Assembly (NCBI GenBank): GCA_947564305.1
Contig: CANOBT010000064.1
Location: forward strand, 1 to 29,924
Origin: an uncultured Lachnospiraceae bacterium
GTDB lineage: Bacteria > Bacillota_A > Clostridia > Lachnospirales > Lachnospiraceae
DNA: 29,924 bases
Reading direction: 5' to 3'
In this document: positions 5,444-28,449 of the stretch, piece by piece
Numbering within the stretch: the first letter of the stretch is position 1
How the letters are laid out: every line of letters begins with the position of its first letter
Program-made: the position numbers and the translations under genes
Notes under the pieces: model-generated
Database searches by the model: none
Told to the model about the DNA's origin: nothing
What the model saw: only the letters and a program-made list of their open reading frames with translations

Positions 5444-5447
5444 TGAC

Positions 5448-6596
5448 ATGCTTATCGGAATAAAAAACGCTTCAAAGCACATTGGCATTTCTATCATTGC
5501 CTGTTGTGCCGTGATTGTATGTACGATGTTCCTGAATTTTTATTTTGACATTCAGTCTGTTGAGGATGAAATAGCATCAGAATTGTCTATGATTTTCTAT
5601 AACGCTCAAGTATCAACGGTAAAAGTTGTTTGCCTTGTAAGCGGTGGTTGTCTGCTCATAACTTCCGTTGTTATGCTGATGTTCTACATCAAGCATTATA
5701 TTGATACCCATAAAAAAGAGCTTGGGATTTTAAAGGCTTTGGGGTATTCCAATCTAAAAGTGGCAAAAAACTTCTGGGTATTTGGAATGAGTGCGTTTAT
5801 TGGAACTGCGATTGGTTTCGGCGGGGCGTTTCTGATGATGCCAAAGTTTTATGCCCTGCAAAATAAAGATAACATGCTTCCGGAAATCGCGATACACTTT
5901 CACCCGGCCATCTTTCTTTATTTTGTAATATTACCGACAGTGTTTTTTTCTCTGCTTGCGATTGGTTATGCCTGGTACAAATTAAAGAAGCCAGTATTAT
6001 CGCTTCTGAAAAATGATTTTCACACCCTAACCAAAGCAAAGAAGCATACAGCGGATAAGCTCAGTGAGTGTTCCTTCGTGGATGACTTGAAAAGAAACAC
6101 CTTAAAAAGTAAGAAAATACTTGTATTTTTCATCATCTTTGCTTCCTTCTGCTTTTCCGCTATGACGCAGATGTCCTTTAGTATGAAAGACCTGTCAAGC
6201 GAACTGATGGGGGCAATGATGCTGATTATCGGTCTTGTTTTAGCATTTACAACTCTGTTCCTCGCTATCACAACAGTGATTAATGGGAACACAAAAACAA
6301 TTGCGATGATGAGGGTTTTTGGCTATTCACAAAAAGAATGCTGCAGGGCAATCCTCGGCGGATACAGGCCGATGTCCTATATCGGTTTTGCCATTGGAAC
6401 CGGATATCAGTACGCCTTACTTCGGATTATGGTGGATATTGTATTTAAAGATTTTGAGGGCATCCCTGTTTATAAATTTGATTTTCCTGTTATGCTTATT
6501 TCGCTTATTGTTTTTATAATGATTTATGAAATTTTGATGCTTGTATATTCCAGAAAAATAAAAAGGATTTCAATGAAAGAAATCATGATGGAATAA
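5448..6596 (+). CDS. Compact FtsX-like ABC permease
   Basis: The product has 382 residues. It starts at the ATG at 5448, preceded by GGGTGGTG; the longer frame overlapping the ATPase is not used. It has about eight hydrophobic segments in two FtsX-like halves, each with the conserved cytoplasmic motif (KKELGILKALGYS in the first half, TKTIAMMRVFGYS in the second). Only about 25 residues separate the first two membrane segments, so the large extracytoplasmic domain usual in MacB/BceB permeases is missing. It forms one transporter with the preceding ATPase. The size suggests a minimal two-unit permease, since both halves end cleanly. Confidence 0.88.
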   Translation: MLIGIKNASKHIGISIIACCAVIVCTMFLNFYFDIQSVEDEIASELSMIFYNAQVSTVKVVCLVSGGCLLITSVVMLMFYIKHYIDTHKKELGILKALGYSNLKVAKNFWVFGMSAFIGTAIGFGGAFLMMPKFYALQNKDNMLPEIAIHFHPAIFLYFVILPTVFFSLLAIGYAWYKLKKPVLSLLKNDFHTLTKAKKHTADKLSECSFVDDLKRNTLKSKKILVFFIIFASFCFSAMTQMSFSMKDLSSELMGAMMLIIGLVLAFTTLFLAITTVINGNTKTIAMMRVFGYSQKECCRAILGGYRPMSYIGFAIGTGYQYALLRIMVDIVFKDFEGIPVYKFDFPVMLISLIVFIMIYEILMLVYSRKIKRISMKEIMME

Positions 6597-8006: not shown

Positions 8007-11000
8007 TTACTTTTCAACTACTACATTGATTGTATCTTTCCTTTTTTTATTCCAACGGATCAGCACAATTGCCATCACTCCGAGAGCAACTACCGCAATG
8101 CCTGCGTCAATACCAATAAACATCTTCGTCATATTATCCATTTTTCCTTCATTTGGATCAGGTATCGTATAATTTCCACTGTTCACAACTGTATAGAAAA
8201 TATTTTTACAAGCCTGGCGCATAGCGGATACTAATGTGGCAGATTCTGTATTTGTAATTTCATTGGATTCATGCTGCATAAATCCAAGCATTGCGTCATT
8301 TCCATTACGTACGAAATCGTCTGTATTCTGATATCCGTAGGAACCATTCCAATCTGAGAGGACCATTCCCCTAAATCCCCATTCATCACGGAGAACAGTA
8401 TTCAAAAGGTGTGGGTTTGCCCCTGCCGCAATGTCACCAATAAAGTTAAAGGAAGACATTACTGCCAATGATTGTCCATCAAAATTCTTTACGCTGTACT
8501 CAAAAGGCTTCAGGTAAATCTCACGTATTGCCTGTTCATCCGCATAGGTCATAAGCATGGAGCATCTGTTTGTTTCCTGGTCATTCAATACAAAATGTTT
8601 GATAAATGCATAAACACCTTCTGTCTGCAGACCGTTTACGATATTCATTGCCATATATCCGCCGAGTACTCCATCCTCTGAATAATACTCGAAGTTACGT
8701 CCACAGAATGCATTACGATGTGTGTTCATTGCCGGCGAATAAGTTCCAAAAATACGGCAGTCCGCATACTCAGCACCTTCTGCCTGCCCTATCCGGTAAG
8801 CCAGATCTTTATTCCATGTCTGCGCGATCAGCAGTTCTGTCGGATATGCGGTTCCATAAACGCCGATATACCAGTCATTCAGGCCAGAAGTACCATCAGA
8901 ATCCATCGTCATCGCTTTTCCTACAGAATCCATTGCCGCTGTCTGGAAACCGCCAAGGTTTACAGCCGTAATCATTTCTTCTACCGTAAGCTGATCAAGC
9001 AGTTCTTCCCAGGACGGATCATCATAGGCAACGCCTACATATTCTGACAAGGTCCGTCCGTTCTTTGCACCTGTTGTCGGCATTACGTCATCCGGGTTAT
9101 CATATTGCGTAGAATCATAATACGCTACGGATTTTGCGGTAATCTCTTCCAGTGTTTCATCATCCATTACATACATTTCGTCTGACGGAGCAGCAGTTGC
9201 TTCTTCATAATTTGCAAATCCATCTTCACGCGAAAGATAAGTTACATTTCCTGCGGAATAATCCTGGAACTGATTTACTGCCGCAATCAGATCAGAATCT
9301 CGTTTCTCTGACTCATAATTGATATCTTCATCTACAGTAAATGTTTCTTCTGCAATTACCGTATGCGCATCGGTACGGATGGATACACCATACTCCCCTG
9401 CCTCTAAAACATATCCGCCATTTTCAGTCTTGATTGCCCGTGAATCATAAGATGCCATTTCTTCTTTTGCAATCTCAAAAGAGACTGTCTCAGACGCGCC
9501 TGGCTCCAAAGTTTCTGTCTTTCCAAACTCAATCAGGTTTACAGAAGCCTTTTCAATCCCACCATTGTTGTATGGCGGAGTATAGTAAATTTCTACAACT
9601 TCTTTTCCTGCCACATCACCGGTGTTAGTCACATTCACGTCAAAGGTTACCGTGTCGCCGTTATCTTTAAACTTCTGCATTTCCTGTGTAAAAGTTGTAT
9701 AACTCAGGCCATGTCCAAATGGGAATTGTACATGCTCGTCATAATCTATCAGCCCTTCTTCTGCTGCCGTCTCATAGAACCTGTAACCAACGTAGATGCC
9801 TTCTACATAGTTTACAAACGCGGTCACTCCCTGGTAAGCAGGGTCTTTCTCGGTAAGTGCCGCCTGCAGGTCTGCGGTGTTGTTGTATGTAAAGTTTCCA
9901 AAATTATTATAATATGGGGTCTGAGTCAGATCATACACATAGGTATCCACGGTTCTTCCCGATGGGTTTACCGTACCATTCAGAATATCCCCAAGTGCTG
10001 CCATGCCGCTTTCCCCGGTTCCCGGAGCAAGGATGACAGAACTGATCTGTTCATACTCTTCTACCCAACCAAGTTCCATCGTATTATTTGCGTTAATAAC
10101 TACCACTACATCATCAAATTCAGAGCAAACCTTCTCGATCATAGCTTCCTCAGTGTTGGATAATTCCAGATAGCTTTCGCCTGGGTCAAAATCATCATAA
10201 TCCTCACTGTTATTTGTGTAGTTGCATGCAAAATAATTATACCGCTCATTTCCGTTTGCTACTTCATCACGCACATCATAAGTGCCATGGATTACCGCAT
10301 TCATATCCATCGGGACATCCTGCCCTTCCCCGCCGGATCTGGATATTACGATCATTGCCTGGTCAGAAAATTCTTTTGCTCCTTCCATCAGTTCGTCCGT
10401 ATAGTTTTCTACCGGTGGTTCCGGAAGCGACCAGTCCGTATATGATACGCTGACAACATTCCCACCCAGATTTCGGGTCGGGCTATATTCAGTATACATG
10501 TCTATAATATCCTGATTTACTTTAAATCCGGCGTCTTTCAAAGATGTAAGAATATCTAAGGCAGAAGAACTATCAGAAGATCCGGAACCTGTACCTCCAT
10601 AAATTGGGTTTGTAGATGCCCATCCGAATACATTTAAGTTGGAATCCGCATTTAATGGCAATACATTGTTTTCATTTTTTGCTAATACCATTCCTTCAGC
10701 TCCAATTTCCTCAATGATCTCCCGTGAATGCGCTTTTGATTCCTCCGATACAGCAGCCTTTGTGTTCAAAATTGGCGCAAGATTGTTATACATTGGGCCA
10801 AAACAGATTACATTGGCAATAACTGTTACAATTAAAATCCATGAAACTCCGGCTCCCCAGCGTACAACATGCCGGGTTCCTTTCTTCACGAACCAGTGCG
10901 CCGCAATCATTACAGCAACCGCAAGCGCTAACAGACCAATAATTGCGTAGATATAGCCGCCAAGCATCTCTACATAAGTCTGTACGTCTGTCGGGCTGAC

Positions 11001-11051
11001 ACCCATACCTTCGAAGATTGGTGTCAGTACATCAACAAGCATCTTTAACAT
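8007..11051 (-). CDS. Membrane-anchored GH3 glycosidase with inverted domain order
   Basis: The product has 1014 residues. Two N-terminal membrane helices (about 32-54 and 66-86) flank a positive loop, and one C-terminal helix (about 980-999) is followed by RWNKKRK. Positive-inside reasoning places the enzyme outside the cell. The GH3 C-terminal-type domain comes first (about 105-440, ending FPFGHGLSYTTF), then an FnIII domain (about 450-570), then the TIM-barrel domain with KHFVLNDQETNR (from 818) and nucleophile Asp900 in MVLSDWNGS. This swapped order is known from a GH3 subset such as Ruminococcus albus BglA; anchoring at both ends is notable. Likely activity is beta-glucosidase or beta-xylosidase on surface oligosaccharides. 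GGAGGAA precedes the ATG. The leader has a LytTR-type operator and a cre-like site. Confidence 0.9.
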   Translation of the reverse strand: MLKMLVDVLTPIFEGMGVSPTDVQTYVEMLGGYIYAIIGLLALAVAVMIAAHWFVKKGTRHVVRWGAGVSWILIVTVIANVICFGPMYNNLAPILNTKAAVSEESKAHSREIIEEIGAEGMVLAKNENNVLPLNADSNLNVFGWASTNPIYGGTGSGSSDSSSALDILTSLKDAGFKVNQDIIDMYTEYSPTRNLGGNVVSVSYTDWSLPEPPVENYTDELMEGAKEFSDQAMIVISRSGGEGQDVPMDMNAVIHGTYDVRDEVANGNERYNYFACNYTNNSEDYDDFDPGESYLELSNTEEAMIEKVCSEFDDVVVVINANNTMELGWVEEYEQISSVILAPGTGESGMAALGDILNGTVNPSGRTVDTYVYDLTQTPYYNNFGNFTYNNTADLQAALTEKDPAYQGVTAFVNYVEGIYVGYRFYETAAEEGLIDYDEHVQFPFGHGLSYTTFTQEMQKFKDNGDTVTFDVNVTNTGDVAGKEVVEIYYTPPYNNGGIEKASVNLIEFGKTETLEPGASETVSFEIAKEEMASYDSRAIKTENGGYVLEAGEYGVSIRTDAHTVIAEETFTVDEDINYESEKRDSDLIAAVNQFQDYSAGNVTYLSREDGFANYEEATAAPSDEMYVMDDETLEEITAKSVAYYDSTQYDNPDDVMPTTGAKNGRTLSEYVGVAYDDPSWEELLDQLTVEEMITAVNLGGFQTAAMDSVGKAMTMDSDGTSGLNDWYIGVYGTAYPTELLIAQTWNKDLAYRIGQAEGAEYADCRIFGTYSPAMNTHRNAFCGRNFEYYSEDGVLGGYMAMNIVNGLQTEGVYAFIKHFVLNDQETNRCSMLMTYADEQAIREIYLKPFEYSVKNFDGQSLAVMSSFNFIGDIAAGANPHLLNTVLRDEWGFRGMVLSDWNGSYGYQNTDDFVRNGNDAMLGFMQHESNEITNTESATLVSAMRQACKNIFYTVVNSGNYTIPDPNEGKMDNMTKMFIGIDAGIAVVALGVMAIVLIRWNKKRKDTINVVVEK

Positions 11052-11257: not shown

Positions 11258-12571
11258 TTAATTTTTTGGAAAAAGAATATCAAGAAAAAATCTACCATTT
11301 TTTACACTCATAAATAATTCTCCATGATATTTTTCTGTTATATAACGTATGCTTCTCACTCCAAATCCATGGTTCTGCTTGTCTTTTTTATCAGTAACCG
11401 GAAGCCCATTCTGAAACTGTGGCTCTTGACTGCACCTATTTTCTAAATGTATGAGAATCATTTCCCTGCGGCTCTTTATATTCAGACTGATAATCCGTTC
11501 TTCTTCCTTCTCCTGCAATACCCGCTCCAACGCATTATCCAATGCATTTCCCATAAGAGCATAAATATCTGCCGGAACCATAAATAATGTAACCTCACCC
11601 TCTACCATACAACTGAACTTCACCTGATATTCATTAAATAGCAACGTTTTTTCCCGTAGGATATAATCCAACGCTTTATTTCCTGTATGATAAATTGCGT
11701 CATAGATGGATACCGCCTCATTTACTTCCTGCAAATATTCAGAACGTACTATAGGATCATCAATCTTTGCCAACGCTCCAATCTGATGCTTCAAATCATG
11801 ACATTTTATATTTATAATATCAATCGCCTCTTTTGCGCTTTTTTGCTGCGCATCCGACATCTTTAATAATTGCTCCATAATCTCCTTCTCATGCTTCATA
11901 CTATTCTCCCGCAGGACATAATACTCCATCAGCAAAACAAAGGCACTGCACAGAAAACCATAAGCCGGACAGATGATCTCTCCCACTCTTGTCATTGCGT
12001 ATTCCTCTGGATACGACCAATATACACTTAGACCAATCGCTGTTAAAAGCAACAAAAAAGACAGTAGAACAATACGCGGATCACAATTAAAAAATTGATT
12101 TATATCTCTATTTTTCCTGACGATTAAATAATACACCAGTATCGCTACTACAACATAGAGCAGATATCTTGTTGCAATAAGATGCAGCAGACTGCCATAA
12201 AGCAAATATTTTACATGAAGCAGATACAGCAAAATCTTAGACAAAGCAAAACTCATATGTTCCGTGGCATAACCTCCTGTCACAATAAAGCACAATTCCA
12301 TTAAATGTATATCATAGCAAAAAATGAACAAACAGGCCGTCAATACTGTATACCCCAAATATAACAAAACATATGTGAACAGATTCTCTGCATTTAGGAT
12401 TTCCATCATAGTCCACCATATTTTGGCAAGAATCAAATAAAGTATAAGGCCGGATAACAACCGACCAAAAAAATGATCTCTTTTCGGCCTCCCAATCAAA
12501 AATACAGCTTCTGAAATCATCAATTGGAAAGAAAATTGTATATAATTACTTCTCATAAATGTATACAGCAT
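11258..12571 (-). CDS. GHKL-type sensor histidine kinase (AgrC-like)
   Basis: The product has 437 residues. About six membrane helices fill the first 215 residues. A coiled segment with the probable phospho-acceptor His258 in KCHDLKHQIG follows, then a GHKL ATPase domain with N-box LMGNALDNALE (339-349) and G-box HGFGVRS (401-407). No periplasmic sensor domain is seen, so the signal is likely sensed in the membrane. The ATG at 12571 is chosen over 12601 because the response-regulator stop ends 1 nt before it and GGGAGG lies upstream, giving coupled translation. No AgrB/AgrD-type peptide genes are nearby. Confidence 0.9.
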   Translation of the reverse strand: MLYTFMRSNYIQFSFQLMISEAVFLIGRPKRDHFFGRLLSGLILYLILAKIWWTMMEILNAENLFTYVLLYLGYTVLTACLFIFCYDIHLMELCFIVTGGYATEHMSFALSKILLYLLHVKYLLYGSLLHLIATRYLLYVVVAILVYYLIVRKNRDINQFFNCDPRIVLLSFLLLLTAIGLSVYWSYPEEYAMTRVGEIICPAYGFLCSAFVLLMEYYVLRENSMKHEKEIMEQLLKMSDAQQKSAKEAIDIINIKCHDLKHQIGALAKIDDPIVRSEYLQEVNEAVSIYDAIYHTGNKALDYILREKTLLFNEYQVKFSCMVEGEVTLFMVPADIYALMGNALDNALERVLQEKEEERIISLNIKSRREMILIHLENRCSQEPQFQNGLPVTDKKDKQNHGFGVRSIRYITEKYHGELFMSVKNGRFFLDILFPKN

Positions 12572-12572
12572 A

Positions 12573-13280
12573 TTAAAATTGTCCTCCCATAAACCCCACA
12601 TATTCTCTGGAAAACTGCTTTTTCAGACGTCTGGAAAGAGGCAGTTCTATTTTTAATTCCAATATAACCGTGTCTTTCCTAATACTACTTACATATTCCA
12701 GATTCACCAGACATCCCGATATACATTCCGCAAAAGGCAGTTCACCAAGTTTTTCTCTGATTGTCTTCATACTCCCACGGCATCTGAATTCTCCCTCCTT
12801 TGTATGAAAAATCAAAAAATCCCGTTCTTTTTCAATATATAAGATATCCTTTGCCGCGAAACGCTTGATTCCTTCTTTATCATTTACCAAAATATAGTGT
12901 GCGCTGCGTCTTCTGCAAAAATGGATTGCCTTTTCTAATTTTACGGAGAAATCATAATATCCTACCGGCTTTACCATAAAATCAATCGCATTTACTTCAT
13001 AGCCGCGGATTGCATACTGTGCCATACTGGTAATAAAGACAATCCCTGCGGCTTCATCTTTAGACCGGATTTCTCGTGCCACCTCAAGCCCATTACTTCC
13101 CGGCATTTCTATGTCAAGAAAAATAACATCATATCCCCCTTTATATTCTTCCAGGAAGTCAAAGCTCGCATAAAAAACAGAAATATCAATGTCCATACTT
13201 TTCTCATCCGCAAATTTACTGATATACCCGGATAGCAGGTCCGCATCCCCTTTTAAATCATCAACTACGGCTATTTTCAT
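12573..13280 (-). CDS. LytTR-family response regulator
   Basis: The product has about 235 residues. The receiver domain (1-120) has phospho-acceptor Asp57 in IFLDIEMPG, acidic residues near the N-terminus (AVVDD) and a conserved lysine in FMVKPVGYYD. A LytTR DNA-binding domain follows (about 130-235). Two adjacent ATGs exist (13283 and 13280); the second has better spacing from GAGG. It precedes its partner kinase by 1 nt. The LytTR-type repeats before the downstream GH3 gene are its likely target. Its own promoter at 13377-13405 contains one perfect LytTR-type 9-mer, so it may control itself. Confidence 0.93.
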   Translation of the reverse strand: MKIAVVDDLKGDADLLSGYISKFADEKSMDIDISVFYASFDFLEEYKGGYDVIFLDIEMPGSNGLEVAREIRSKDEAAGIVFITSMAQYAIRGYEVNAIDFMVKPVGYYDFSVKLEKAIHFCRRRSAHYILVNDKEGIKRFAAKDILYIEKERDFLIFHTKEGEFRCRGSMKTIREKLGELPFAECISGCLVNLEYVSSIRKDTVILELKIELPLSRRLKKQFSREYVGFMGGQF

Positions 13281-13376
13281 CATAGCACCTCACAATTTAT
13301 ATTATGTGTAAATCTGTACTTCCGATATTTTCTCTAGTTTACTGAGATTCTGATTGTTTGGAATGTTCCGTTTAGT

Positions 13377-13445
13377 ATTATAGTACCGTTAGTATAATAT
13401 ATCAAATATGTTTATCATATAGTTATCCATAGTTAAAAGTTATTC
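13377..13445 (-). promoter_or_regulatory. Promoter of the LytTR two-component operon with a degenerate copy of the LysR-regulon box
   Basis: On the minus strand TTGATA (13400-13405), a 17-bp spacer and TATAAT (13377-13382) form a strong sigma-A promoter. The segment 13403-13445 matches 22558-22600 at 32 of 43 positions without gaps, and its distance to the -10 box is within 1 bp of those at the two LysR-regulon promoters. Conserved ends are CAAATA and AGTTAAAA..TATTC on the plus strand. The spacer contains ACCGTTAGT (13385-13393), a perfect match to the LytTR 9-mer, suggesting autoregulation. Confidence 0.6.
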
Positions 13446-19079: not shown

Positions 19080-20018
19080 TTATTTCAAATCTTCTTTGAA
19101 AAAGCTTTCCAACTTATCAAACGGAATCTTAGTAATATCATCATAAAGGTCAATATGTCTTGCTCCTTCCACAACATACAGTTCTTTAGGTTCTGCCGCT
19201 GCTTCATAAGCAGTTTCACTAAACGCGCGTGAATGGGCAATATCACCTGTGATCAACAAAATCGGTCTTGGAGAGATCATGGCAATATGGTTGAGTGACT
19301 GGAAATTGGACATCGCCATATCGCTGGTCACTGTAAACCCACCTCGGGCATTCGGATGATGGCCACGTTTTAAACCATAAAACTCATAAAATTCTGCTCC
19401 TGGTCCCTCCAATTCGGAAGGTATTTCATCTGCTGGTTCTTCTGGGAACGAAGGAACATACAAAGGTTCTCCATTATCGACATCTGCCCAGCGCTGTTTT
19501 GCCAAAGCTGTAATTGCTTCATTCCACTGGTCATGATTCATCATATCTGCAAAACTGCTGATATCGTACATTGCACTGGTCGCAACTGCTTTTATACGGG
19601 CATCTACCTGTGCCGCACTGAGGGCAAAACCGCCGCTTCCACAAATACCGACAGCTCCTATTTTCTCCCGGTCAACATATCTCAAAGTACCAAGGAAATC
19701 AACTCCCGCACTGAAATTCTCCGCAAATAAATCTGGAGAAGACACATGTCTCGGCTCTCCGCCGCTTTCTCCCATATGGCTTGGATCAAATGTCAGCACC
19801 ACAAACCCTCTCTGCGCCAGTTGGTTGGCATAAACACCAGGCCCCTGTTCCTTAACGCCACCATAGGGCGGGCCAATAACCAATGCAGGGTATCTCTTTG
19901 TTTCGTCCATATTCTTGTCAGTATACAGATCGCCCGCAATAGTAATCCCATAACGATTTCGATAACGCACATGCTCCCGGGAAACATTCTCACTCAACTT
20001 AAAAATATAGTTACTCAT
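19080..20018 (-). CDS. Alpha/beta hydrolase (dienelactone hydrolase/YcjY-like)
   Basis: The product has 312 residues. The alpha/beta-hydrolase fold shows an oxyanion region PPYGGVKEQGPGVYA, the strand-loop TFDPSHMGESGGEPR, nucleophile Ser128 in GICGSGGFA and a late catalytic His in EGARHIDLYD. No signal peptide, so cytoplasmic. Relatives include YcjY-type and dienelactone-hydrolase-family enzymes acting on small esters or lactones. The ATG at 20018 is preferred over the one at 20024 because GGAG lies 7 nt before it. It follows a cyclophilin-like lipoprotein gene by 30 nt and is probably the last gene of operon B. Substrate unknown. Confidence 0.88.
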   Translation of the reverse strand: MSNYIFKLSENVSREHVRYRNRYGITIAGDLYTDKNMDETKRYPALVIGPPYGGVKEQGPGVYANQLAQRGFVVLTFDPSHMGESGGEPRHVSSPDLFAENFSAGVDFLGTLRYVDREKIGAVGICGSGGFALSAAQVDARIKAVATSAMYDISSFADMMNHDQWNEAITALAKQRWADVDNGEPLYVPSFPEEPADEIPSELEGPGAEFYEFYGLKRGHHPNARGGFTVTSDMAMSNFQSLNHIAMISPRPILLITGDIAHSRAFSETAYEAAAEPKELYVVEGARHIDLYDDITKIPFDKLESFFKEDLK

Positions 20019-20048
20019 TATCATTCTCCTTTCAAATTCCTCCTGTAA

Positions 20049-20606
20049 TCAATGGGACTGTTCTATGGAAATTGTAATTTCTGTTTCTTCCCCACTCAGA
20101 ATCTGTTCCAGTTCTGATTCATCCATATCTGATATTTTACCAAGTCTCGTATATGCCCATGAATTAGACCCATAAAAAATTACAATTTGATTTCCATTAT
20201 ACAGACAGATATCTCCGGACTTGGTCGTTATCTGTCTGTCATTTCTCGGAAGTTCTGTTCCAAGGGAGCATACTTTTTCAAAGCCGCCGTAATTGGAACA
20301 CGATATCGTCAGCGGTCCATCAGCCAGAAGTTCTTTTAAAGCTTCTGCTGATTCATTGTTCTCCAATATTACCGTTAATGTACTTTCGCCTAGTTTCATA
20401 TAAATTTGATTCGCCACCGCGTCTTCCTCCGTTTCTTCCATATCTTCTGGCTCCGCTTCAATCTCTGTTTCAAGACTGCTGTCAGAATGAGGTGTTTCTA
20501 CATTCTGCGTTGCGCTGTTCTTCCCACCATCTTTTGTGTTATTCCCACAAGCCGCAATAGTCAGTATTACAAATAATACTGGCAGGATTACCAGGTATCT
20601 TTTCAT
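20049..20606 (-). CDS. Cyclophilin-like fold lipoprotein
   Basis: The product has 185 residues. A lipoprotein signal peptide ends at the lipobox IAAC (Cys20). An acidic, low-complexity linker (about 25-65) follows, then a cyclophilin-like domain (about 66-183) with MKLGESTLTVIL, LADGPLTISCSNYGGFEK and NQIVIFYGSNSWAYTRLGKI. This domain is common in clostridia and usually lacks proline-isomerase residues; its job is unknown. AAAGGAG precedes the ATG. It should sit on the outer face of the membrane. A second, divergent member is encoded at 21876-22469 in the same operon. Confidence 0.87.
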   Translation of the reverse strand: MKRYLVILPVLFVILTIAACGNNTKDGGKNSATQNVETPHSDSSLETEIEAEPEDMEETEEDAVANQIYMKLGESTLTVILENNESAEALKELLADGPLTISCSNYGGFEKVCSLGTELPRNDRQITTKSGDICLYNGNQIVIFYGSNSWAYTRLGKISDMDESELEQILSGEETEITISIEQSH

Positions 20607-20663: not shown

Positions 20664-21539
20664 TCAGGCGCAATTACATTCTTTGACAGTCTTACCGTAA
20701 TCCTGTCTGCTGATGATAACTTCCCCTCTGGCATTTTCATCATCCATGATGATTTCTCCAGTTTCTGGCACATAAATCTGTCCGGACAAAGGATTTTTAA
20801 TGCTGATGACTGATGTTGTAACAGTTGCCTCTACCTCCGATTTTTCAAAAGCAAGATCCGTGTCGATCATTTCACAGTCGATCAATCTCAGATTTTTGCA
20901 GTAACATAACGGCTGTGTTCCGATAATTTTACAATTAATCAGTGTCAGCCCATCCGAATACCATGCCAGATACTCACCTTTTACCACGCTGTTTTTCACG
21001 GTTACATTTTCTGAATGCCAGAAGGCATCCTTTGTGTCAAATGTACAGTTTTCAAATGTAGAATTGCGGATATACTGGAACGAATATTTCCCCTGAAACT
21101 GTACATCCTCAAAATGCAGATTTTCGGAACGCATCATGAAATACTCGCTCTGCGCCGTACTGTGCCGCATCTGCATATTATTGACTGACCAGCCAAATTC
21201 CGGAGAAATAATGTCACAGTTTTCAATGGTAACATCACTGCATTCCCGGAGCGCCTTGATTCCATGCATCTTTGTGTCTGCAATTTTAATGTGGTCGGAG
21301 TACCACAGTGATGCCCTGCAAAGTTCCGTCATTTCACAGTCTGTGATCGTCAGGCCGTGATCATGCCAGAATGGATAACGCAGGTTGAAAAAGCAATGTT
21401 CTGTTTCGATGTTCCTGCCTTCCTTAAATGCGCTCTCCCCATCAGCCGGGCCGTCAAAAGAACAGTTTTTCACAACCACTCCATCACTTCCATAAAGTGC
21501 TCTTTCCATGTCAAATGTCTGATTTTCAATGAATTTCAT
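20664..21539 (-). CDS. DUF3737 family protein (right-handed beta-helix)
   Basis: The product has 291 residues built from repeated short strands such as VVVKNCSFDG, LTITDCEMTEL, VTIENCDI and LTLINCKIIG, the pattern of a right-handed parallel beta-helix. The start MKFIENQTFDMERALYG is typical of DUF3737. No signal peptide, so cytoplasmic. No catalytic residues of pectate lyases are evident and the function is unknown. The ATG at 21539 follows GGAGG by about 13 nt and a closer GGAGAA; the upstream frame start is less likely. It lies between the small protein gene (59 nt) and a cyclophilin-like lipoprotein gene (57 nt) in operon B. Confidence 0.9.
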   Translation of the reverse strand: MKFIENQTFDMERALYGSDGVVVKNCSFDGPADGESAFKEGRNIETEHCFFNLRYPFWHDHGLTITDCEMTELCRASLWYSDHIKIADTKMHGIKALRECSDVTIENCDIISPEFGWSVNNMQMRHSTAQSEYFMMRSENLHFEDVQFQGKYSFQYIRNSTFENCTFDTKDAFWHSENVTVKNSVVKGEYLAWYSDGLTLINCKIIGTQPLCYCKNLRLIDCEMIDTDLAFEKSEVEATVTTSVISIKNPLSGQIYVPETGEIIMDDENARGEVIISRQDYGKTVKECNCA

Positions 21540-21567
21540 TTCTCCATTTCCTCCTATTTTCAAGCTA

Positions 21568-21598: not shown

Positions 21599-21886
21599 TT
21601 AATAATTTCTGTTCCGTCTGATCTGGTAAACCAGATAATCCAGACAGTCTATGTGTTTTTCTTCTTCATGTACTTTGTTTAAAAGGCATTTCCGATGTTC
21701 CTCCATTAGCTTTAAAGGGCTGCTTAGATCATCCTGCCCCAAACACTCCATAAAGCATGTAATCGTATCCGGACTGCACCCTGCATCCTTTAGATTCTGA
21801 ATCACATCTTCCTCTGAATCATAGCCTATCGCCTGTGCCAACATCGTTCTTACACCATCCTTTTTCCTTACTACTTCATTCTCCAT
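21599..21886 (-). CDS. Small conserved hypothetical protein
   Basis: The product has about 95 residues, all helical in character and charged, with a conserved-looking end (LMEEHRKCLLNKVHEEEKHI, then DCLDYLVYQIRRN). This end resembles the dimerisation helices of some MerR-type regulators, but no DNA-binding domain is present. The start overlaps the upstream lipoprotein gene by 11 nt without its own good ribosome site, so translation is probably coupled; a GTG one codon upstream is also possible. Three cysteines (in GCSPD, TCFMEC) are present. Part of operon B. Function unknown. Confidence 0.8.
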   Translation of the reverse strand: MENEVVRKKDGVRTMLAQAIGYDSEEDVIQNLKDAGCSPDTITCFMECLGQDDLSSPLKLMEEHRKCLLNKVHEEEKHIDCLDYLVYQIRRNRNY

Positions 21887-22469
21887 CACTAATGCTGATT
21901 ATCTTGTTTCCCCAGCCTTCCAACACCGGATTATTTTCAACTGCATCTACAAATTCCTCTGTATATTCGAAATTCCCTACCGGCGTGTACTCAGCGGAAA
22001 CCTCAGCATCCTGATAAAATAAAATAATACGATTTGGTTCAGAATAATAAACTTCTCCCGCTTTTTCTTCTGTAATTTCTTCCGGCGCAGATGGTATCTC
22101 ATAACGGTTCGGGATATCATAATACTGCATCACTTCCCAATTATCATAGTCATCATAATGATAAATCGGAAGATTCCAGTCACTGGTTCCTACATGCCTT
22201 GCAATGGCTTCTGCTGTGTCGTTTTCATAGAGATGAAGGATAAAAGGTTCTCCTTCATACCCAAACCTTACTTCCAACTCAGATGCAGGCTGCGCGGAAT
22301 CATTTCCTTCACTCTGTAAGCTGGAATCCTCTCTGCTTTCTGTTGTACTCCCTTCTGCAGAAGATATCGAATTGTCAGAAGAACTGTCCTCAAAAGAATC
22401 CTCACATCCCGCCAGCATCATCCCTGCCAGCAGTGTAACGCCCATTATTACAGACAATTTTTTTCTCAT
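21876..22469 (-). CDS. Cyclophilin-like fold lipoprotein (first gene of operon B)
   Basis: The product has 197 residues. The lipobox LAGC places the lipidated Cys at 22. A Ser/Asp/Glu-rich linker (about 23-65) follows, then a cyclophilin-like domain (about 68-195) with LEVRFGYEGEPFILHLYEND, NRIILFYQDAEVSAEYTPVG and a late EGWGNKIISI. It is related in layout to the lipoprotein at 20049-20606 but divergent. AAGGAG lies about 9 nt before the ATG. The promoter upstream carries the LysR-regulon box. Surface-exposed, function unknown. Confidence 0.87.
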   Translation of the reverse strand: MRKKLSVIMGVTLLAGMMLAGCEDSFEDSSSDNSISSAEGSTTESREDSSLQSEGNDSAQPASELEVRFGYEGEPFILHLYENDTAEAIARHVGTSDWNLPIYHYDDYDNWEVMQYYDIPNRYEIPSAPEEITEEKAGEVYYSEPNRIILFYQDAEVSAEYTPVGNFEYTEEFVDAVENNPVLEGWGNKIISISDGE

Positions 22470-22530: not shown

Positions 22531-22600
22531 ATTATAGGTTCCATTTCAAAAAAATAGCAAATACTTATATCCAATACATTTCTATAGTTAAAACCTATTC
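22531..22600 (-). promoter_or_regulatory. Operon B promoter with LysR-regulon box, copy 1
   Basis: On the minus strand TTGCTA (22555-22560), 18 bp and TATAAT (22531-22536). The 49-bp block 22552-22600 is 42/49 identical, without gaps, to 28385-28433 at the LysR/amidase divergent promoter. It overlaps and extends upstream of the -35 box, where a LysR-type activator binds. Conserved stretches on the plus strand include CAAATACTTATATC and TATAGTT.AAACCTAT. Confidence 0.85.
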
Positions 22601-22683
22601 ATTTTGAAAACTCATTTCCCTCATCTCACCACTCATCTCGCCAAGCTAATCAGCCACATATTACTCAATTCCACCGGTTCTTC

Positions 22684-25035
22684 TTACTCTGTCACTAAGG
22701 AGGTAAGCCTTCCCGTCTTGATCTTTACGGCGGCAATCCACGAAAATGCAATGGAAAGACCTGACACTGCCATTGCTGGGAGCAAGGTATTGGATGCCGT
22801 CAGATGGGATGCAAAATTACTGATCCCAAACATTCGAAGGAGCGCAGCTACAAGAGGATCAGTGAAACATGCGCTGAAAAGCACACCAAGTACAGACCCA
22901 ATCAGAGAAACGATTCCAAACCGTAACGCAAAAGAGAACCGCAGCCTTGCTGAAGTAAAGCCAATTGTTCTGTATATCCCCATATCCTTTTGTTCCATAA
23001 CGAGCAGTTTACTCCCTGTTAAGGCCGTAACAACCAGTATCACGATCACTACAATTCCATACATAAAGCACATCAGAAGCTCCATAGCGGAAAGAATCCC
23101 ATACAACCCGGGCCATGAATTTTCATGAAGATACACATCACCGCCATAGGCTTCATCAAGAGCCTGCATCACTGCCTTCTGCTGTCTTTCGTCTTCCAGA
23201 AAATAGTGGGTGCACCACATATTGTTCGTTTCCCGGCCTATTCTCTGATAACCCGCCCGGCTTAATCCTACATTGGCTCCCATGTCATTTGCACATTGGT
23301 AAATGCCGGAAACCTGATACTCATAAACTCCAAGCTCCCCACCGACCAGAACCGTATCTCCAATCTCCACATCCAGATCTGCCGCCACAAACTCTGTCAA
23401 GACAATCTCATCATCACCAGTGCAGGTCTTTCCTTCCAACAAGTGAAATCGTTCCGGCTCCGTAATCACATTCGCCGTATAATCTATACCTTCCACAGTC
23501 ACTCCCGGCATGGCAAGCATATACTGGTCTGTAATGTCTGTGTAAGACCGAATCAGCCGTTCCACATCCTCAATCGTCGTTTCTCCCATGGGCTGTGCGG
23601 CAATATGCAGGTCAGACGGGTTGAAGGCATCCATCAGTCCTTCCCCATCAGGGCCTAGCCAGGAATCCATACGTCCGATCAAAGAAGCAAAAAACGAAAG
23701 CAAAAGAGCCACCAGGCAGACACCGATGTAACGTGCCTTCCCCACGGAAAGCTGACGTAAAGCCAGCCAAAATCCCAGTCCCTCTTTCGATATTTGTGAA
23801 TACCTGGAGCCGCTTTTCACTGCTTTTCCCTCTTCCCTGCGGATGGCTTTCATCGGCGTGATCTTTTCTATCCCCGCTGTTTTCCAGTACACGAATCCAG
23901 ATAGCACAAGCAGTACCACCAGTAAAGCAGACAGACAGATTCCCCAGGGAATACCTGCGGGAAATAAAAGTCCGGTAGTAGTCAATGTCATACGGCTGAT
24001 AATCTGTGCCGTCGGAAAAGCCGCCAGGCTTCCCGCAGCCATGCCGCATAAAACCGGGAACAAAAAGAGAAATATCTGTATCATCTGCAGCTTTTTTGTT
24101 GTAAATCCGATGGTTTTCAGGATTCCCGTATCCACCATATCCTGCTCCATAGAACTGCTGATACTGTGTCCCAGAACCACCAGTGAAACCAGTACAAGAA
24201 TCAAAGCGAAGGCCAGAAAAAGTCCGGTAAATACATTTTGCAAGGTAAGCATAAATCCAGAGATTGCACTGTCTGAATGTGTAAATTCCGCATATTGTGT
24301 AAGCTCTGTATTTTCATTCAGGACAGCATTCAATTCCGCCCCATTCATATCCACACTATCTCCCTGAAATATATGCAGCATATATCCGTCACGGGCAAGC
24401 CCGTCAATCCCTGCCTGGCTGATCACCTGCACAATCTCATCATGATCCTGCCTGCAGATCAGAAACCCCTTCATCCCAATCATGGTGCTTCCCATAAAGG
24501 GGTCTTCAAACCATCCTTTTACAACGAATGATCTTACCACACTGTTGCGCGCAATATGGAACTGAATCTCGTCTCCGATCTCCACCCCGAACATAGATTG
24601 CATTGATGGTGACACATACATTTCTCCTGGTCCGATTTCCGCGTTTCCGTTTTGATACTCCACCAGGTCATCAATGAAAATCTTATATGGATATTTCTCC
24701 GGTTCATATGTGATCAGTTGTCCTTCACTGTCTGACTGCTGTTTATTTACTTCATATTCTGAAAAAATGACTGGCTGAATACCTATATGATCCGTTTCTG
24801 GAAGTGTATCTATTTCTTCAGCCAGCTTTTCTATATCAGATACACCGGACACCCAGGCAGTCATTTCACCAAAGCCAAGCCGCCCCATCTCTTCCTGTAC
24901 ATAACTTTCTGCATTTTTCCATACACTTAGGGCAGACAGAAGTGTCAATGATAAAAGCAGGAGCAGAATAAAAATTCCGATCAGGCTTCCCTTATGCCGC
25001 TTGCTGAGCGCAAGCCATAACGTTTTGATTTCCAT
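22684..25035 (-). CDS. FtsX/MacB-type ABC permease
   Basis: The product has 783 residues. An N-terminal membrane helix is followed by a large extracytoplasmic domain (about 40-245), three helices with the FtsX-type loop (VDTGILKTIGFTTKKLQ), a second membrane and extracytoplasmic unit, and three C-terminal helices with the matching loop (KDMGIYRTIGFTSARLR). This is the two-repeat permease layout that works with a single ATPase. The ATG at 25035 follows AAGGCGG; the frame to 25077 overlaps the ATPase end. It partners the ATPase encoded 13 nt upstream. Such transporters move lipids, peptides or lipoprotein-like cargo, or drive cell-envelope mechanics. Last gene of operon A. Confidence 0.9.
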   Translation of the reverse strand: MEIKTLWLALSKRHKGSLIGIFILLLLLSLTLLSALSVWKNAESYVQEEMGRLGFGEMTAWVSGVSDIEKLAEEIDTLPETDHIGIQPVIFSEYEVNKQQSDSEGQLITYEPEKYPYKIFIDDLVEYQNGNAEIGPGEMYVSPSMQSMFGVEIGDEIQFHIARNSVVRSFVVKGWFEDPFMGSTMIGMKGFLICRQDHDEIVQVISQAGIDGLARDGYMLHIFQGDSVDMNGAELNAVLNENTELTQYAEFTHSDSAISGFMLTLQNVFTGLFLAFALILVLVSLVVLGHSISSSMEQDMVDTGILKTIGFTTKKLQMIQIFLFLFPVLCGMAAGSLAAFPTAQIISRMTLTTTGLLFPAGIPWGICLSALLVVLLVLSGFVYWKTAGIEKITPMKAIRREEGKAVKSGSRYSQISKEGLGFWLALRQLSVGKARYIGVCLVALLLSFFASLIGRMDSWLGPDGEGLMDAFNPSDLHIAAQPMGETTIEDVERLIRSYTDITDQYMLAMPGVTVEGIDYTANVITEPERFHLLEGKTCTGDDEIVLTEFVAADLDVEIGDTVLVGGELGVYEYQVSGIYQCANDMGANVGLSRAGYQRIGRETNNMWCTHYFLEDERQQKAVMQALDEAYGGDVYLHENSWPGLYGILSAMELLMCFMYGIVVIVILVVTALTGSKLLVMEQKDMGIYRTIGFTSARLRFSFALRFGIVSLIGSVLGVLFSACFTDPLVAALLRMFGISNFASHLTASNTLLPAMAVSGLSIAFSWIAAVKIKTGRLTSLVTE

Positions 25036-25048
25036 TTTATTCACCGCC

Positions 25049-25810
25049 TTACCATGACAGGGCAGACAGCCAGTCACTCAGTTTCTTTTCCCTGTCTTTT
25101 GCGTCATCTTCCCGGTAGACAGGAAGCTGCATTTCGTCCAGTATCCTTCCGTCTTCCAGATAGAGAATCCTGTTTCCCCTTATTGCCGCCCGTATATCAT
25201 GCGTCACCATCAGAATGCTCTGGCCGTCGGCCGCAAGACCAGTCAGAACATTTAATACATCATCCGTATTGCGTTTGTTCAGAGCGCCTGTCGGCTCATC
25301 GGCAAATAAAAGCCCCGGCTGATTGATGATTGCCCTTGCGATCGCGGCTCTCTGCGCCTCCCCTCCTGAAACTTCGAAAGGGAATCTGTCTTTTGCTTTT
25401 TCTACATGCATCTGTTTCAATAAATCTTCCGCTTTCGCCCTTGCACTTTTTGTATCCTGCCCGGAATTCAGGAAACCGGCCACTGCTACATTTTCAAACA
25501 GACTCAGGGAACTGACCAGATGCGTCTGCTGAAATACAAAACCAAACTCCCGGGAGCGCAGGTCCGCCATCTGGCGCTCCCTGTACCCACTGATTTCTTC
25601 TCCCTTATACAGTACCTTCCCTCCTGTGATGCTGTCCATCCCGCTCAAAGCGTACAGCAAAGTTGATTTTCCTGCCCCGGAAGAACCCATGATTACTGTA
25701 AAGTCTCCGGCATAGATATCGATATCAATATTTTTGATCACCTGCTCATTCCCTGAATGATGTGGGAACTGCTTGCATACTCCTCTTGCGGAAAGTAATA
25801 CTTCTTTCAT
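25049..25810 (-). CDS. ABC transporter ATP-binding protein (MacB/LolD type)
   Basis: The product has 253 residues. Walker A GSSGAGKST (42-50), Q-loop FQQ (93-95), signature VSGGEAQR (147-154) and Walker B LLFADEP (167-173). Two small departures: the signature starts with Val instead of Leu, and the D-loop reads GALN rather than GALD. A C-terminal extension of about 30 residues follows the core. It overlaps the PaaK-like gene by 4 bp (ATGA) and precedes its permease by 13 nt, so all are cotranslated in operon A. Confidence 0.92.
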   Translation of the reverse strand: MKEVLLSARGVCKQFPHHSGNEQVIKNIDIDIYAGDFTVIMGSSGAGKSTLLYALSGMDSITGGKVLYKGEEISGYRERQMADLRSREFGFVFQQTHLVSSLSLFENVAVAGFLNSGQDTKSARAKAEDLLKQMHVEKAKDRFPFEVSGGEAQRAAIARAIINQPGLLFADEPTGALNKRNTDDVLNVLTGLAADGQSILMVTHDIRAAIRGNRILYLEDGRILDEMQLPVYREDDAKDREKKLSDWLSALSW

Positions 25811-27174
25811 ATCATCGCCCCCTTTGCGTCCTTCAGGCTGTCAGTTAAAATCAAAGGCTTCTTTCCTGTTGCGGAATCCGGAAGGATTTCTTTTACAAAC
25901 CGTATATAAAATTGTACATAAAGCATCTTTTTCTCTGTAAGTATTTTTTTCATTTCGTTTTGGAGTTCCCTTCTGACGGCCTCCTGCTTTGTTTCATTTG
26001 GAACCTCTGCCAACATCTCGAATGCATCTTCGCCAATCTTGCGGAACTGATAATCCCGAAGTCCTTTAATGCAAAACCCTTCTACCGCTAAAGGATGCAG
26101 AAAATCCCTGTTTCCATCGCCATCTTCAAACCATAGCATATCTTCATCACGCCCAAGCAGGATTTCTGCCCTTCCGAATGGGCTGCCTTCCAAGGGCTTC
26201 TTTAAAACCAGATGATCCGAAATCCGATAACGAATCAGCGGCTGTGCAAAATTATAGAGTGATGTCAGATACATGCTGTCACCTTTCACCTCAATCACAT
26301 TCATATCATCAAAAAGAACCATTCCGCCTTCCCGTCCGGTCCCAACACCAATAGCCAGGGATTCACTGGCTCCATAAAAATTGACAACTTCCGCATGGAA
26401 AACCGATTCCAAGAAACGTCGTAATCCTGGTCCAAGCGGCTCACCACAGGAGATTACCCGGAGTACATCCATTTCAATTTCTCCATTATACACAAGCTCC
26501 CCTAAAATCTTGATCGCAGAAGGATAACCAATGATGATGTTGGGTTTGAAAGTCCGGATGCTATCCACCCATTGTGCCAGGGGCGTATTAATATCCAGAT
26601 ACATCTGTTTCGCACCGACCCCGTCAATCCCATCTCCTACAGCCATTGCCCCTCCATAGCGCCCTGTCGTAGCGGCGATATATACAATCCGTGGCTTTCC
26701 TGCCAGAAGCCTCAAAATCTGCAGCATAGACATATTCCATAAGGCTCCCCGTATGATCCCAAGGAGCATTTGATTCCATGCCGCTTCATCATAAATAAAG
26801 TATCCTGGCTTTCCGGTGCTGCCGGATGAGTGGACGACATGATAATTTCGGAATGTTTTTTCCTGGATATCGCCCTCTGCGTCAAATTTCCGTAATTCTT
26901 CCTGATTTAGATCAGACACGGTAACCAACTCATCAAAGTGCTCCATAAGGATGTTTTTATCAATCGTAGGAAAAGCAGACAGTGGAAGCGTAGAGAGCTG
27001 TTCTTCTTTAATTCCTGCACGTTCAAAAGATTTCTTATAGAAATCGGAATGTTCCCACACGAAATGGAGCAGCCTGCGAAGTTTCTTTTCCTGCATCTGT
27101 TTCATCTGCTTCACAGACTTTTTCTCATTCCGCTTTAATCCATATAAATCCAATAATACTTTTGCGTAATTCAA
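25807..27174 (-). CDS. PaaK-like adenylate-forming enzyme (phenylacetate-CoA ligase family)
   Basis: The product has 455 residues with the adenylate-forming motifs SSGSTGKPG (116-124), YGASES (267-272), RYRISD (316-321) and a late ATGKK lysine (near 438). This family activates a carboxylic acid as the acyl-AMP and often transfers it to CoA; no carrier domain is fused. It uses a TTG start with AGGAGG immediately upstream, and no ATG fits better. It lies 24 nt after the lipid-anchored amidase gene and overlaps the ABC ATPase. A role in handling the acid released by the amidase, or in making an exported acyl compound, is plausible but unproven. It could also belong to the coenzyme F390 synthetase-like branch. 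Confidence 0.88.
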   Translation of the reverse strand: MNYAKVLLDLYGLKRNEKKSVKQMKQMQEKKLRRLLHFVWEHSDFYKKSFERAGIKEEQLSTLPLSAFPTIDKNILMEHFDELVTVSDLNQEELRKFDAEGDIQEKTFRNYHVVHSSGSTGKPGYFIYDEAAWNQMLLGIIRGALWNMSMLQILRLLAGKPRIVYIAATTGRYGGAMAVGDGIDGVGAKQMYLDINTPLAQWVDSIRTFKPNIIIGYPSAIKILGELVYNGEIEMDVLRVISCGEPLGPGLRRFLESVFHAEVVNFYGASESLAIGVGTGREGGMVLFDDMNVIEVKGDSMYLTSLYNFAQPLIRYRISDHLVLKKPLEGSPFGRAEILLGRDEDMLWFEDGDGNRDFLHPLAVEGFCIKGLRDYQFRKIGEDAFEMLAEVPNETKQEAVRRELQNEMKKILTEKKMLYVQFYIRFVKEILPDSATGKKPLILTDSLKDAKGAMI

Positions 27175-27198
27175 AGTCCTCCTACTCCTTTCCTCTAC

Positions 27199-28335
27199 TC
27201 AATACAGAAAACGCGCCACTGCCGCCTTTTCTGCATACTCTGGTATCGAAAAAGCATATCCTCCTTCATAGTTTTCACGATGGTAATACGTTGCCTGTCC
27301 ATCCGTCTGGTTAAATACAATACTCCACTCCGTAGATTCAAACTCCCCGAAATTCCCTTTACTCACACTGCCCAATGCATCACGTACACCTTCTTCACTC
27401 ATGGTTTCATTTTCTTCCAACTGCTCTATCAACATATCATAACGGGTATGGGACTGTGCTGTTCCAATCCCCTGTTTTTCCCCTTCTGCCAGATAAAAGT
27501 TAGTCAAAACCGGCGTTTCTGTCACGATCATTTCATGATTTACATATTCAACAGCTACGCTCCTGCCGGTGGTATCTGCCAGGGCAAAATGAACCATCAT
27601 GCCCATAGAAGCATGCATATCATATTGGTCAAGCAGTTCCAGTGCTTCTTCTACCGTTGCTGCTTTGTCAAGTAATAAACGGATTGCAGTCGTTGTCGTA
27701 ATATCTGGCTTCTCCGTATTCTGTTCAATGGCGGCCGAGTCCTGGATCATATTTACTGATATTGCAAGTCCTTTTTCATTCATTCCATCCAGGGGCGCAT
27801 ACAATGCGGCAACTGTCTTTATTTCATCCATTTTCAGTGCCATGCCGACCAGCCCTCCCTGACCCATAAAGTCTACGTTTACTGTAGAAATGGAAGCATA
27901 TCCGTTTTTAGGACGTGACAGGACTACCATAGCTTCACAATGATTCCAGTCAAAATTACGCCCAAACAGTGACTTACCATCCGGAGTCCGCACTGCCATC
28001 GTACTGCATCCAAAAAGTTCATCCGCAAACTCCAGTTCCACACCCGCCAGAAGGTTCTCCGTCAGGAAAGAAACAACTTCTTTATCAGAAGAAGCGCCGC
28101 CTCTCAATAAAAACTCATCAAACCCATAGTCACCGGTATGGCAGACAGCAGAAAGACCATCTTCTAATTCCTTGATTTCTCCCGTAGGTACAATTTCCGT
28201 GATATTTTTATCTGTTAAATTCGTTTCAGCATTCCTATTTCCCACACTCTGCCCTGTTCTTTTTTCTTTTGTGCCGCATCCGGTCAACGATACAGCAATC
28301 AGGATAACAAACGCAAACCATACATTTCTTCGCAT
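27199..28335 (-). CDS. Lipid-anchored linear amide C-N hydrolase (choloylglycine hydrolase/C45-type Ntn hydrolase)
   Basis: The product has 378 residues. Signal peptide with lipobox LTGC (Cys20), then a linker and propeptide to about 109. The catalytic core begins at Cys110 (FGCSTMAVR). Residues at the spacing of bile salt hydrolase are present: Arg126 and Asp129 (GRNFDW, Cys+16 and +19), Asn186 in GMNEKGL, Asn279 in VLTNF and Arg298. The set supports a real Ntn amidase that must be cut before Cys110 to expose its nucleophile. Substrates in the family include bile-acid conjugates, penicillins and N-acyl amines. Lipid anchoring outside the cell is unusual for bile salt hydrolases. First gene of operon A; AAGGAGGAG precedes the ATG. 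Confidence 0.88.
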   Translation of the reverse strand: MRRNVWFAFVILIAVSLTGCGTKEKRTGQSVGNRNAETNLTDKNITEIVPTGEIKELEDGLSAVCHTGDYGFDEFLLRGGASSDKEVVSFLTENLLAGVELEFADELFGCSTMAVRTPDGKSLFGRNFDWNHCEAMVVLSRPKNGYASISTVNVDFMGQGGLVGMALKMDEIKTVAALYAPLDGMNEKGLAISVNMIQDSAAIEQNTEKPDITTTTAIRLLLDKAATVEEALELLDQYDMHASMGMMVHFALADTTGRSVAVEYVNHEMIVTETPVLTNFYLAEGEKQGIGTAQSHTRYDMLIEQLEENETMSEEGVRDALGSVSKGNFGEFESTEWSIVFNQTDGQATYYHRENYEGGYAFSIPEYAEKAAVARFLY

Positions 28336-28365
28336 TAACAGCTCCTCCTTTTTTACTTTAATTTC

Positions 28366-28449
28366 ATTATAATGATCAGGAAGAAAATAACAAATACTTA
28401 TATCTTATACATGTGTATAGTTGAAACCTATCCGCTTTCCTGCTATACT
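28366..28449. promoter_or_regulatory. Divergent operon A / LysR promoter with LysR-regulon box, copy 2
   Basis: Minus strand: TTGTTA (28388-28393), 16 bp, TATAAT (28366-28371) for the amidase operon. Plus strand: TTGAAA (28421-28426), 17 bp, TATACT (28444-28449) for the LysR gene. The 49-bp block at 28385-28433 lies between and overlaps both -35 boxes. It contains TATACA-TG-TGTATA, a near-perfect inverted repeat of LysR type. One bound LysR could activate operon A and repress its own gene. Confidence 0.88.

Follow-up and report, generated by a model that had tools for sequence, protein, structure and literature searches.

We analyzed a 29,924-nucleotide stretch of genomic DNA from an uncultured Lachnospiraceae bacterium (GenBank assembly GCA_947564305.1, contig CANOBT010000064.1), referred to below as the window. 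Here, the gene of a LysR-type transcriptional regulator (LTTR) stands back to back with a four-gene operon (operon A), which encodes an amide hydrolase (Amd), a PaaK-related adenylate-forming enzyme, and the ATPase and permease of an ABC transporter. It is followed on the same strand by operon B, with genes for two cyclophilin-like proteins (cycA and cycB), a small helical protein (sm96), a DUF3737 protein, and an alpha/beta hydrolase. Further along lies operon C, with a response regulator (RR), a histidine kinase (HK), and a GH3 family protein. See Table 1 for coordinates. A 49-bp block precedes each operon (boxes A, B, and C), and this block is very probably the complete operator of the neighboring LysR, containing both half-sites and controlling at least two, probably three, operons.

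Boxes A and B agree at 42 of 49 positions without gaps, just as the initial annotation described, and a repeat search extends the pair to 58 nt at 83% identity. By comparison, the best 49-mer match in 2,000 dinucleotide-preserving shuffles of both upstream regions had a mean of 26.0 and a maximum of 33. The two boxes had also been said to occupy the same place relative to the −35 and −10 elements. This holds to within 2 nt, as each box includes the −35 of the operon it precedes (TTGTTA in box A and TTGCTA in box B), with TATAAT downstream of it, but the spacers differ (16 nt for A and 18 nt for B, with 17 nt for C). The proposed overlap of box A with the LysR gene’s own promoter is also borne out by a good candidate, TTGAAA followed after 17 nt by TATACT with an extended TG-N motif. 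Box C was absent from that annotation. It matches box B at 36 and box A at 34 of 49 positions, while the next-best position in the window reaches 28.

Next, we looked for the box in relatives. A scan of genome contigs with the LysR protein was used to select the best 80 of at least 531 confirmed relatives as loci (L001–L080; 68–90% identity). In 63 of the 80, the 250 bases upstream of lysR include a block that matches at 36 or more of 49 positions. A matrix was built from the 59 unique lysR-adjacent blocks preselected at this threshold; their own scores are not evidence, and second sites and controls are. The matrix holds 57.8 bits and finds 86 sites of at least 12 bits in the 80 loci, versus none of at least 8 bits in the same 1.33 Mb reversed. 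Information per base is 1.18 bits inside the box and 0.22–0.23 bits in the flanks (75 sites of at least 35 bits with full flanks). Within the window, the matrix scores box A at 62.9, box B at 66.7, and box C at 29.6 bits, the last compared with a maximum of 14.9 bits among 200 simulated windows.

The box is composed of two dyads, ATAR-N7-YTAT, at positions 3–17 (dyad 1) and 33–47 (dyad 2), with centers 30 bp apart. The T-N11-A signature is nearly invariant in the 59 unique training boxes: T4 is present in 59 and A16 in 54 for dyad 1, and both T34 and A46 in all 59 for dyad 2. We dropped the idea of a perfect dyad, as the symmetry lies mainly in the outer arms. The −35 of the outgoing operon (TTGYTA) falls within dyad 1. 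An outward −10 with at least four of six matches stands at a spacing of exactly 17 nt in 73 of the 81 boxes adjacent to lysR and in 29 of the 31 others, although five of those 31 (L143, L147, L158, L163, and L166) were found through a pattern that requires a −10 and are not independent support. In boxes adjacent to lysR, dyad 2 carries the −35 of lysR (TTGAAA), which is paired with an extended −10. The lysR-directed extended TG occurs in 71 of 81 lysR-adjacent boxes versus 6 of 31 others, and the lysR-directed −10 (at least 4/6) in 60 of 81 versus 7 of 31. Beside lysR, two back-to-back promoters thus share one operator, as would be expected for autorepression combined with target activation. 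A promoter scan by consensus alone was uninformative in the window (22 found, 22.5 expected), and our promoter assignments therefore rest on register and conservation. An RNA element such as a riboswitch or attenuator was rejected, as the box lies upstream of each outgoing operon’s −10 and the window gave no Rfam match.

One position of dyad 2 distinguishes boxes beside lysR from strong copies (at least 35 bits) elsewhere. At position 39, which supplies the G of TTGAAA, 70 of 77 boxes beside lysR have G, compared with only 1 of 12 strong boxes away from lysR (Fisher 1e-8, uncorrected for relatedness). The two dyad arms are both intact in 74 of the 77 and in all 12, respectively. The window follows the same rule, with G in box A and A in boxes B and C; position 39 is the only one of the seven A–B differences that falls within dyad 2. 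In the strong copies, selection thus appears to separate the positions needed for LysR binding from those needed for the promoter.

The box also travels with this clade of LysR proteins. A strict pattern allowing three mismatches hit 12 of 299 family genomes, with no control hit, and 12 of 13 genomes searched from among those of the loci, at one or two sites each. The LysR protein was tested in 40 of the 299 genomes, namely, all 12 strict-positives and 28 of the 287 strict-negatives. A LysR at least 67% identical was present in 11 of the 12 positives, and the best among the 28 negatives was 65%. The strict pattern also misses weak sites such as box C. A pattern of half-site plus −10 gave 2–7 sites per genome in 13 genomes versus 0–1 control hits per genome; nine of the 30 loci fetched with it are boxless by the matrix, and those hits are probably due to chance. 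Among 104 LysRs with enough upstream DNA, a strong box lies upstream of 23 of 25 at 80% identity or above, 40 of 47 at 70–80%, and 9 of 11 at 65–70%, and then of 0/2, 0/6, and 0/13 at successively lower identities. This amounts to 72 of 83 at 65% or above versus 0 of 21 below, with a Spearman coefficient of 0.60 between identity and box strength.

Features of the DNA-binding domain follow the same division. Among 106 proteins, the wing segment has 15 residues, as in RGTKGSRK, in all 73 LysRs with a strong box, whereas the 12–13-residue form has a strong box in 0 of 23. In 70 of the 73 box carriers, QPxLS is followed by T (one has I, one has K, and one is unreadable). The coupling is not strict, as 10 LysRs have the long wing but no strong nearby box; one of them (L029) has a box 2.6 kb away. 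The lysR of B. parvula (L031) lacks an adjacent box, but that genome has one ~91 kb away, before an sm96 gene. Relative to its paralogues, the clade has a wing longer by ~3 residues and T in place of R/K in the recognition helix. The wing and helix change in step with an altered distal half-site, such as TTGACGG/TTGACAG in L123 and L138. Two diverged relatives (L121 and L122; 61–64% identity) keep the operon-side half (CAAATACTTATAT) with a different lysR-side dyad, which suggests that the lysR-side dyad may carry the specificity.

Behind these boxes, the genes of operons A, B, and C recur in changing arrangements. Second boxes precede all or part of cycA-sm96-DUF3737-cycB in L001, L005 (with an extra gene first), L008, L016, and, weakly, L011 (17.1 bits). 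The box beside lysR leads sm96 in L034, L036, and L048 and an untyped gene in L052; these four loci carry a second, weaker box (24–27 bits) before Amd-PaaK. Both L067 and L076 have operon A and operon B genes behind a single box. Blautia schinkii (L170) has one box followed by sm96-RR-HK-GH3-Amd-PaaK-ABC ATPase-permease-cycA-DUF3737, a row that covers all three window operons with proteins 51–74% identical to those of the window (DUF3737, 36%). In Faecalicatena orotica (L169), a 21.6-bit box lies directly upstream of RR-HK-GH3-GH3 (63, 62, 76, and 58% identical to the window proteins); 8 kb away is a strong box with a lysR copy next to it. This copy (L169 17852–18610) is split into two separate frames of 71 and 179 aa and appears disrupted; the genome holds another LysR relative (L094, 72%) with a box. 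Among the 85 boxes examined in L001–L080, 70 have a gene behind them, and the first is sm96 in 29, Amd in 12, cycA in 5, DUF3737 in 5, cycB in 2, the hydrolase in 1, and an untyped gene in 16. Seven sampled untyped genes encode an FMN reductase, an aldo/keto reductase with an Fe-S domain, a HAMP histidine kinase, an OmpR-type regulator, an aminotransferase, an iron alcohol dehydrogenase, and a MATE protein. At position 1499 of L096 (genome G205), a strong box lies between a DUF3737 gene and a 322-codon frame without a match to the window LysR at 1e-8.

The search of relatives with the same gene set was thus favorable to the proposal that operons A and B form one LysR regulon: the box accompanies LysR orthologues, and the same operator has orthologous A and B genes behind it, whether separate or merged. 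The proposal was incomplete, as it missed the third operon, the two dyads, and the back-to-back promoters. Box C stands above background and its operon recurs behind a box in L169 and L170, which supports its likely membership in the regulon, less firmly than that of box B.

The initial annotation counted nine genes plus the regulator for operons A and B, and this agrees with the open reading frames (ORFs). Operon membership was assigned from the gaps, which are −29 to 57 nt within A or B, 214 nt between A and B, and 402 nt from B to the next gene. Amd, CycA, and CycB look like lipoproteins from their N-termini. The GH3 gene begins 206 nt after the kinase gene, which makes its co-transcription in operon C less certain. 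The GH3 protein has a reversed domain order, with the GH3 C-terminal domain first, then an Fn3-like domain, and then the GH3 N-terminal domain. A separate unit on the plus strand (4177–6596) consists of the gene of a TetR-like regulator and, after it, those of an ABC transporter pair, as named from the ORFs.

Table 1. Genes, predicted operators, and candidate promoters of the window
Feature	Coordinates	Strand	Evidence and remarks
LysR-type regulator, 298 aa	28494–29390	+	HTH_1 4.2e-22, LysR_substrate 1.1e-20, both above gathering score
Box A, predicted LysR operator, lysR/operon A intergenic	28385–28433	−	Dyad 1 (operon side) 28387–28401; dyad 2 (lysR side) 28417–28431; centers 30 bp apart
lysR promoter TTGAAA-17-TATACT, extended TG	28421–28449	+	−35 (28421–28426) within dyad 2; −10 28444–28449
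Operon A promoter TTGTTA-16-TATAAT	28366–28393	−	−35 within dyad 1
Operon A gene 1 (Amd), Ntn-type amide hydrolase, CBAH/AAT, C45 family	27199–28335	−	Pfam CBAH 1.3e-18, AAT 2.1e-15; NCBIfam C45_proenzyme 96.3 bits, cut-off 85
Operon A gene 2, adenylate-forming enzyme, PaaK/F390 synthetase-related	25807–27174	−	AMP-binding 2.2e-09; TIGR02304 1.1e-33, below cut-off
Operon A gene 3, ABC transporter ATPase	25049–25810	−	ABC_tran 6e-32
Operon A gene 4, FtsX/MacB-type ABC permease	22684–25077	−	FtsX 1.7e-14, MacB_PCD 9e-07
Box B, predicted operator of operon B	22552–22600	−	Dyad 1 22554–22568; dyad 2 22584–22598; A not G at position 39
Operon B promoter TTGCTA-18-TATAAT	22531–22560	−	
Operon B gene 1 (cycA), cyclophilin-like protein	21876–22469	−	Cyclophil_like2 1.6e-10
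Operon B gene 2 (sm96), small helical protein, 96-codon frame	21599–21889	−	No Pfam match at 0.001
Operon B gene 3, DUF3737	20664–21563	−	1.5e-116
Operon B gene 4 (cycB), cyclophilin-like protein	20049–20606	−	Cyclophil_like2 6.8e-24
Operon B gene 5, alpha/beta hydrolase	19080–20024	−	DLH 3.4e-06
Box C, weaker predicted operator upstream of the RR/HK/GH3 operon	13397–13445	−	Matrix 29.6 bits; A at position 39
Operon C promoter TTGATA-17-TATAAT	13377–13405	−	In register with box C
Operon C gene 1, LytTR response regulator (RR)	12573–13283	−	LytTR 2.7e-15, Response_reg 3.2e-14
Operon C gene 2, GHKL histidine kinase (HK)	11258–12601	−	HATPase_c_5 9.5e-25
Operon C gene 3, GH3 family protein	8007–11051	−	Glyco_hydro_3 and Glyco_hydro_3_C; adjoins RR-HK in L169 and L170

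Several observations weigh against reading the box as the operator of a LysR regulon with three operons. Ten of the 80 loci have no box of at least 12 bits (L004, L010, L017, L027, L031, L046, L060, L065, L066, and L070); two of these (L004 and L010) have fewer than 100 bases of upstream DNA, and the genome of L031 carries its box unlinked to lysR. Because the loci are related to each other, their counts are not independent. The training boxes of the matrix were lysR-adjacent and preselected, and only the best 80 of at least 531 relatives were examined. The box-positive genome G205 gave no LysR match at 1e-60, and the strict-negative genome G016 carries a 50-bit box upstream of its 65% LysR, showing that the strict pattern undercounts. 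The 15 weak boxes away from lysR often lack dyad 2, with both arms in 7 and G39 in 3. Finally, box C is itself weak with a degenerate dyad 1, the counterpart in F. orotica scores lower still (21.6 bits) and its nearby strong-box lysR looks disrupted, and no minus-strand terminator was listed by consensus scan in the A–B gap.

This last point, together with the merged rows of L170, L067, and L076, favors transcription of operon B mainly by read-through from operon A, with box B as an internal booster in a single transcription unit. We find this doubtful, though it carries some weight, as box B has a complete −35 and −10 and is equal in strength to box A, and second boxes before cycA recur in L001, L005, L008, and L016. 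It is unlikely that only boxes A and B belong to LysR, with box C being either a decayed site or the target of another regulator. The low score and degenerate operon-side dyad of box C, and the 21.6 bits in F. orotica, would fit such a site, but box C exceeds every simulated window and has TTGATA-17-TATAAT in register, and RR-HK-GH3 is both boxed in F. orotica and part of the single box-led row of B. schinkii. Moreover, comparably weak boxes precede Amd-PaaK in L034, L036, L048, and L052. A different reader of the box, either a LysR paralogue or an unrelated factor, with lysR adjacent through linkage only, appears very improbable. Several genomes do have LysR paralogues at 39–59% identity, and the diverged relatives L121, L122, and L137 (54–64%) keep a similar operon-side half upstream; however, the presence and strength of the box follow the LysR clade across genomes, down to wing length and the recognition-helix residue, and B. 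parvula keeps both LysR and box despite the distance between them. It is hardly credible that the blocks have no regulatory meaning and represent a mobile repeat or a copied promoter. The one or two strict copies per genome in 12 of the 13 genomes searched would be compatible with a repeat, but conservation between species with diverged flanks falls at the box edges (promoter positions excepted), strong copies lose the unneeded G of the lysR −35 while keeping the dyads, and the window matches no Rfam family.

If the box is the LysR operator, a LysR tetramer would bind the two T-N11-A dyads, whose centers are ~three helical turns apart. The operon-side dyad is the likely activation site because it contains the operon’s −35, and the lysR-side dyad would be the anchoring site. 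Next to lysR, the latter also contains LysR’s own −35, and LysR bound there would shut off its own promoter. Upon inducer binding, the tetramer would shift at the operon-side dyad, allowing RNA polymerase to start transcription of all three operons together. Boxes B and C would then be copies that have kept the LysR dyads (imperfectly in C) and lost the outward lysR promoter. The gene set includes an amide hydrolase, an acyl-adenylating enzyme, an ABC pair, and apparent envelope lipoproteins, joined in relatives by an FMN reductase, an aldo/keto reductase, and a MATE pump. Together, these genes suggest that the cell responds to a small compound at its envelope, either acylated or electrophilic.

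The most frequent first gene, sm96, has 431 homologues, and none of the 120 listed contains a Pfam domain. An alignment of 21 sequences shows two invariant cysteines. Translation of sm96 may start inside the 96-codon frame, given the internal MLAQ of the window protein with which several 82-aa homologues begin. The predicted model has four helices, the C-terminal one long, with a best predicted local distance difference test (pLDDT) score of 80 and a predicted template modeling (pTM) score of 0.51; three of five models have a pLDDT of 65–67. Weak profile and fold matches are to MerR proteins, mainly their C-terminal half, with unrelated helical chains scoring nearby, and five sm96 proteins gave no Pfam MerR match at E-values up to 10. 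A likeness to the C-terminal half of MerR without the DNA-binding head is possible and serves as a lead only. For sm96 only, MerR-family regulators of the NmlR type are among the closest known systems. A broader and quite speculative proposal, which we consider improbable as a whole, is that a wing-extended LysR clade in gut Lachnospiraceae and relatives has enlarged its regulon by copying the complete two-promoter operator, with strong copies retaining the LysR dyads and the promoter of the operon but dropping the lysR-promoter G, and that sm96 is a headless MerR-like dimerization core acting as signal partner or antagonist. LysR and the MerR fragment would then make up one sensory circuit, whose signal at the gut cell envelope would be an electrophilic or acylated compound.

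It is textbook knowledge that LTTRs control divergent operons. The window LysR has the domains of the family (HTH_1 and LysR_substrate), stands divergent from operon A with the box between them, and has two T-N11-A dyads, one overlapping the target −35. These features, and the overlap with the regulator’s own promoter, are shared with the general LTTR model, which PMC11739112 describes as a tetramer on a high-affinity recognition site and a low-affinity activation site. What sets the present case apart from that model is that conservation in 63 of 80 loci extends over all 49 bp, taking in most of the linker as well as both half-sites, and that the box has been copied to other operons. The best-scoring NCBIfam model for the window LysR is CidR, a Firmicute LTTR, at 1.5e-38, but its score of 132.6 bits falls short of the equivalog cut-off of 415 (NF047520), as does AlsR at 99.4 versus 430. 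No cid or als family scored above cut-off among the window genes scanned. LTTRs with solved structures (CysB, BenM/CatM, and OxyR) are homologous in sequence from the DNA-binding domain into the effector domain, a relation of sequence only; the wing of this clade is longer than in its own paralogues.

In the open-licence literature, judged by title and the start of the abstract, we found nothing on an operator or multi-operon regulon for this LysR clade. The same searches returned no open-licence papers on DUF3737, alone or with LysR, on the combination of cyclophilin-like protein, LysR, operon, and flavodoxin, or on a binding motif of a LysR-type Lachnospiraceae regulon. The regulator itself is of an ordinary kind (LysR-type), and the new element, well supported by the comparisons above, is a predicted, defined operator and multi-operon regulon for this clade.

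The result provides a precise predicted operator for the LysR clade and ties proteins of unclear role, including DUF3737, the cyclophilin-like proteins, the C45 amide hydrolase, and the small helical protein, into one probable response. The strong operator copies would separate the positions kept for LysR binding from those kept for the promoter. Furthermore, as changes in the operator go along with changes in wing length and in one residue of the recognition helix, the clade and its paralogues may offer a natural experiment in LysR specificity.

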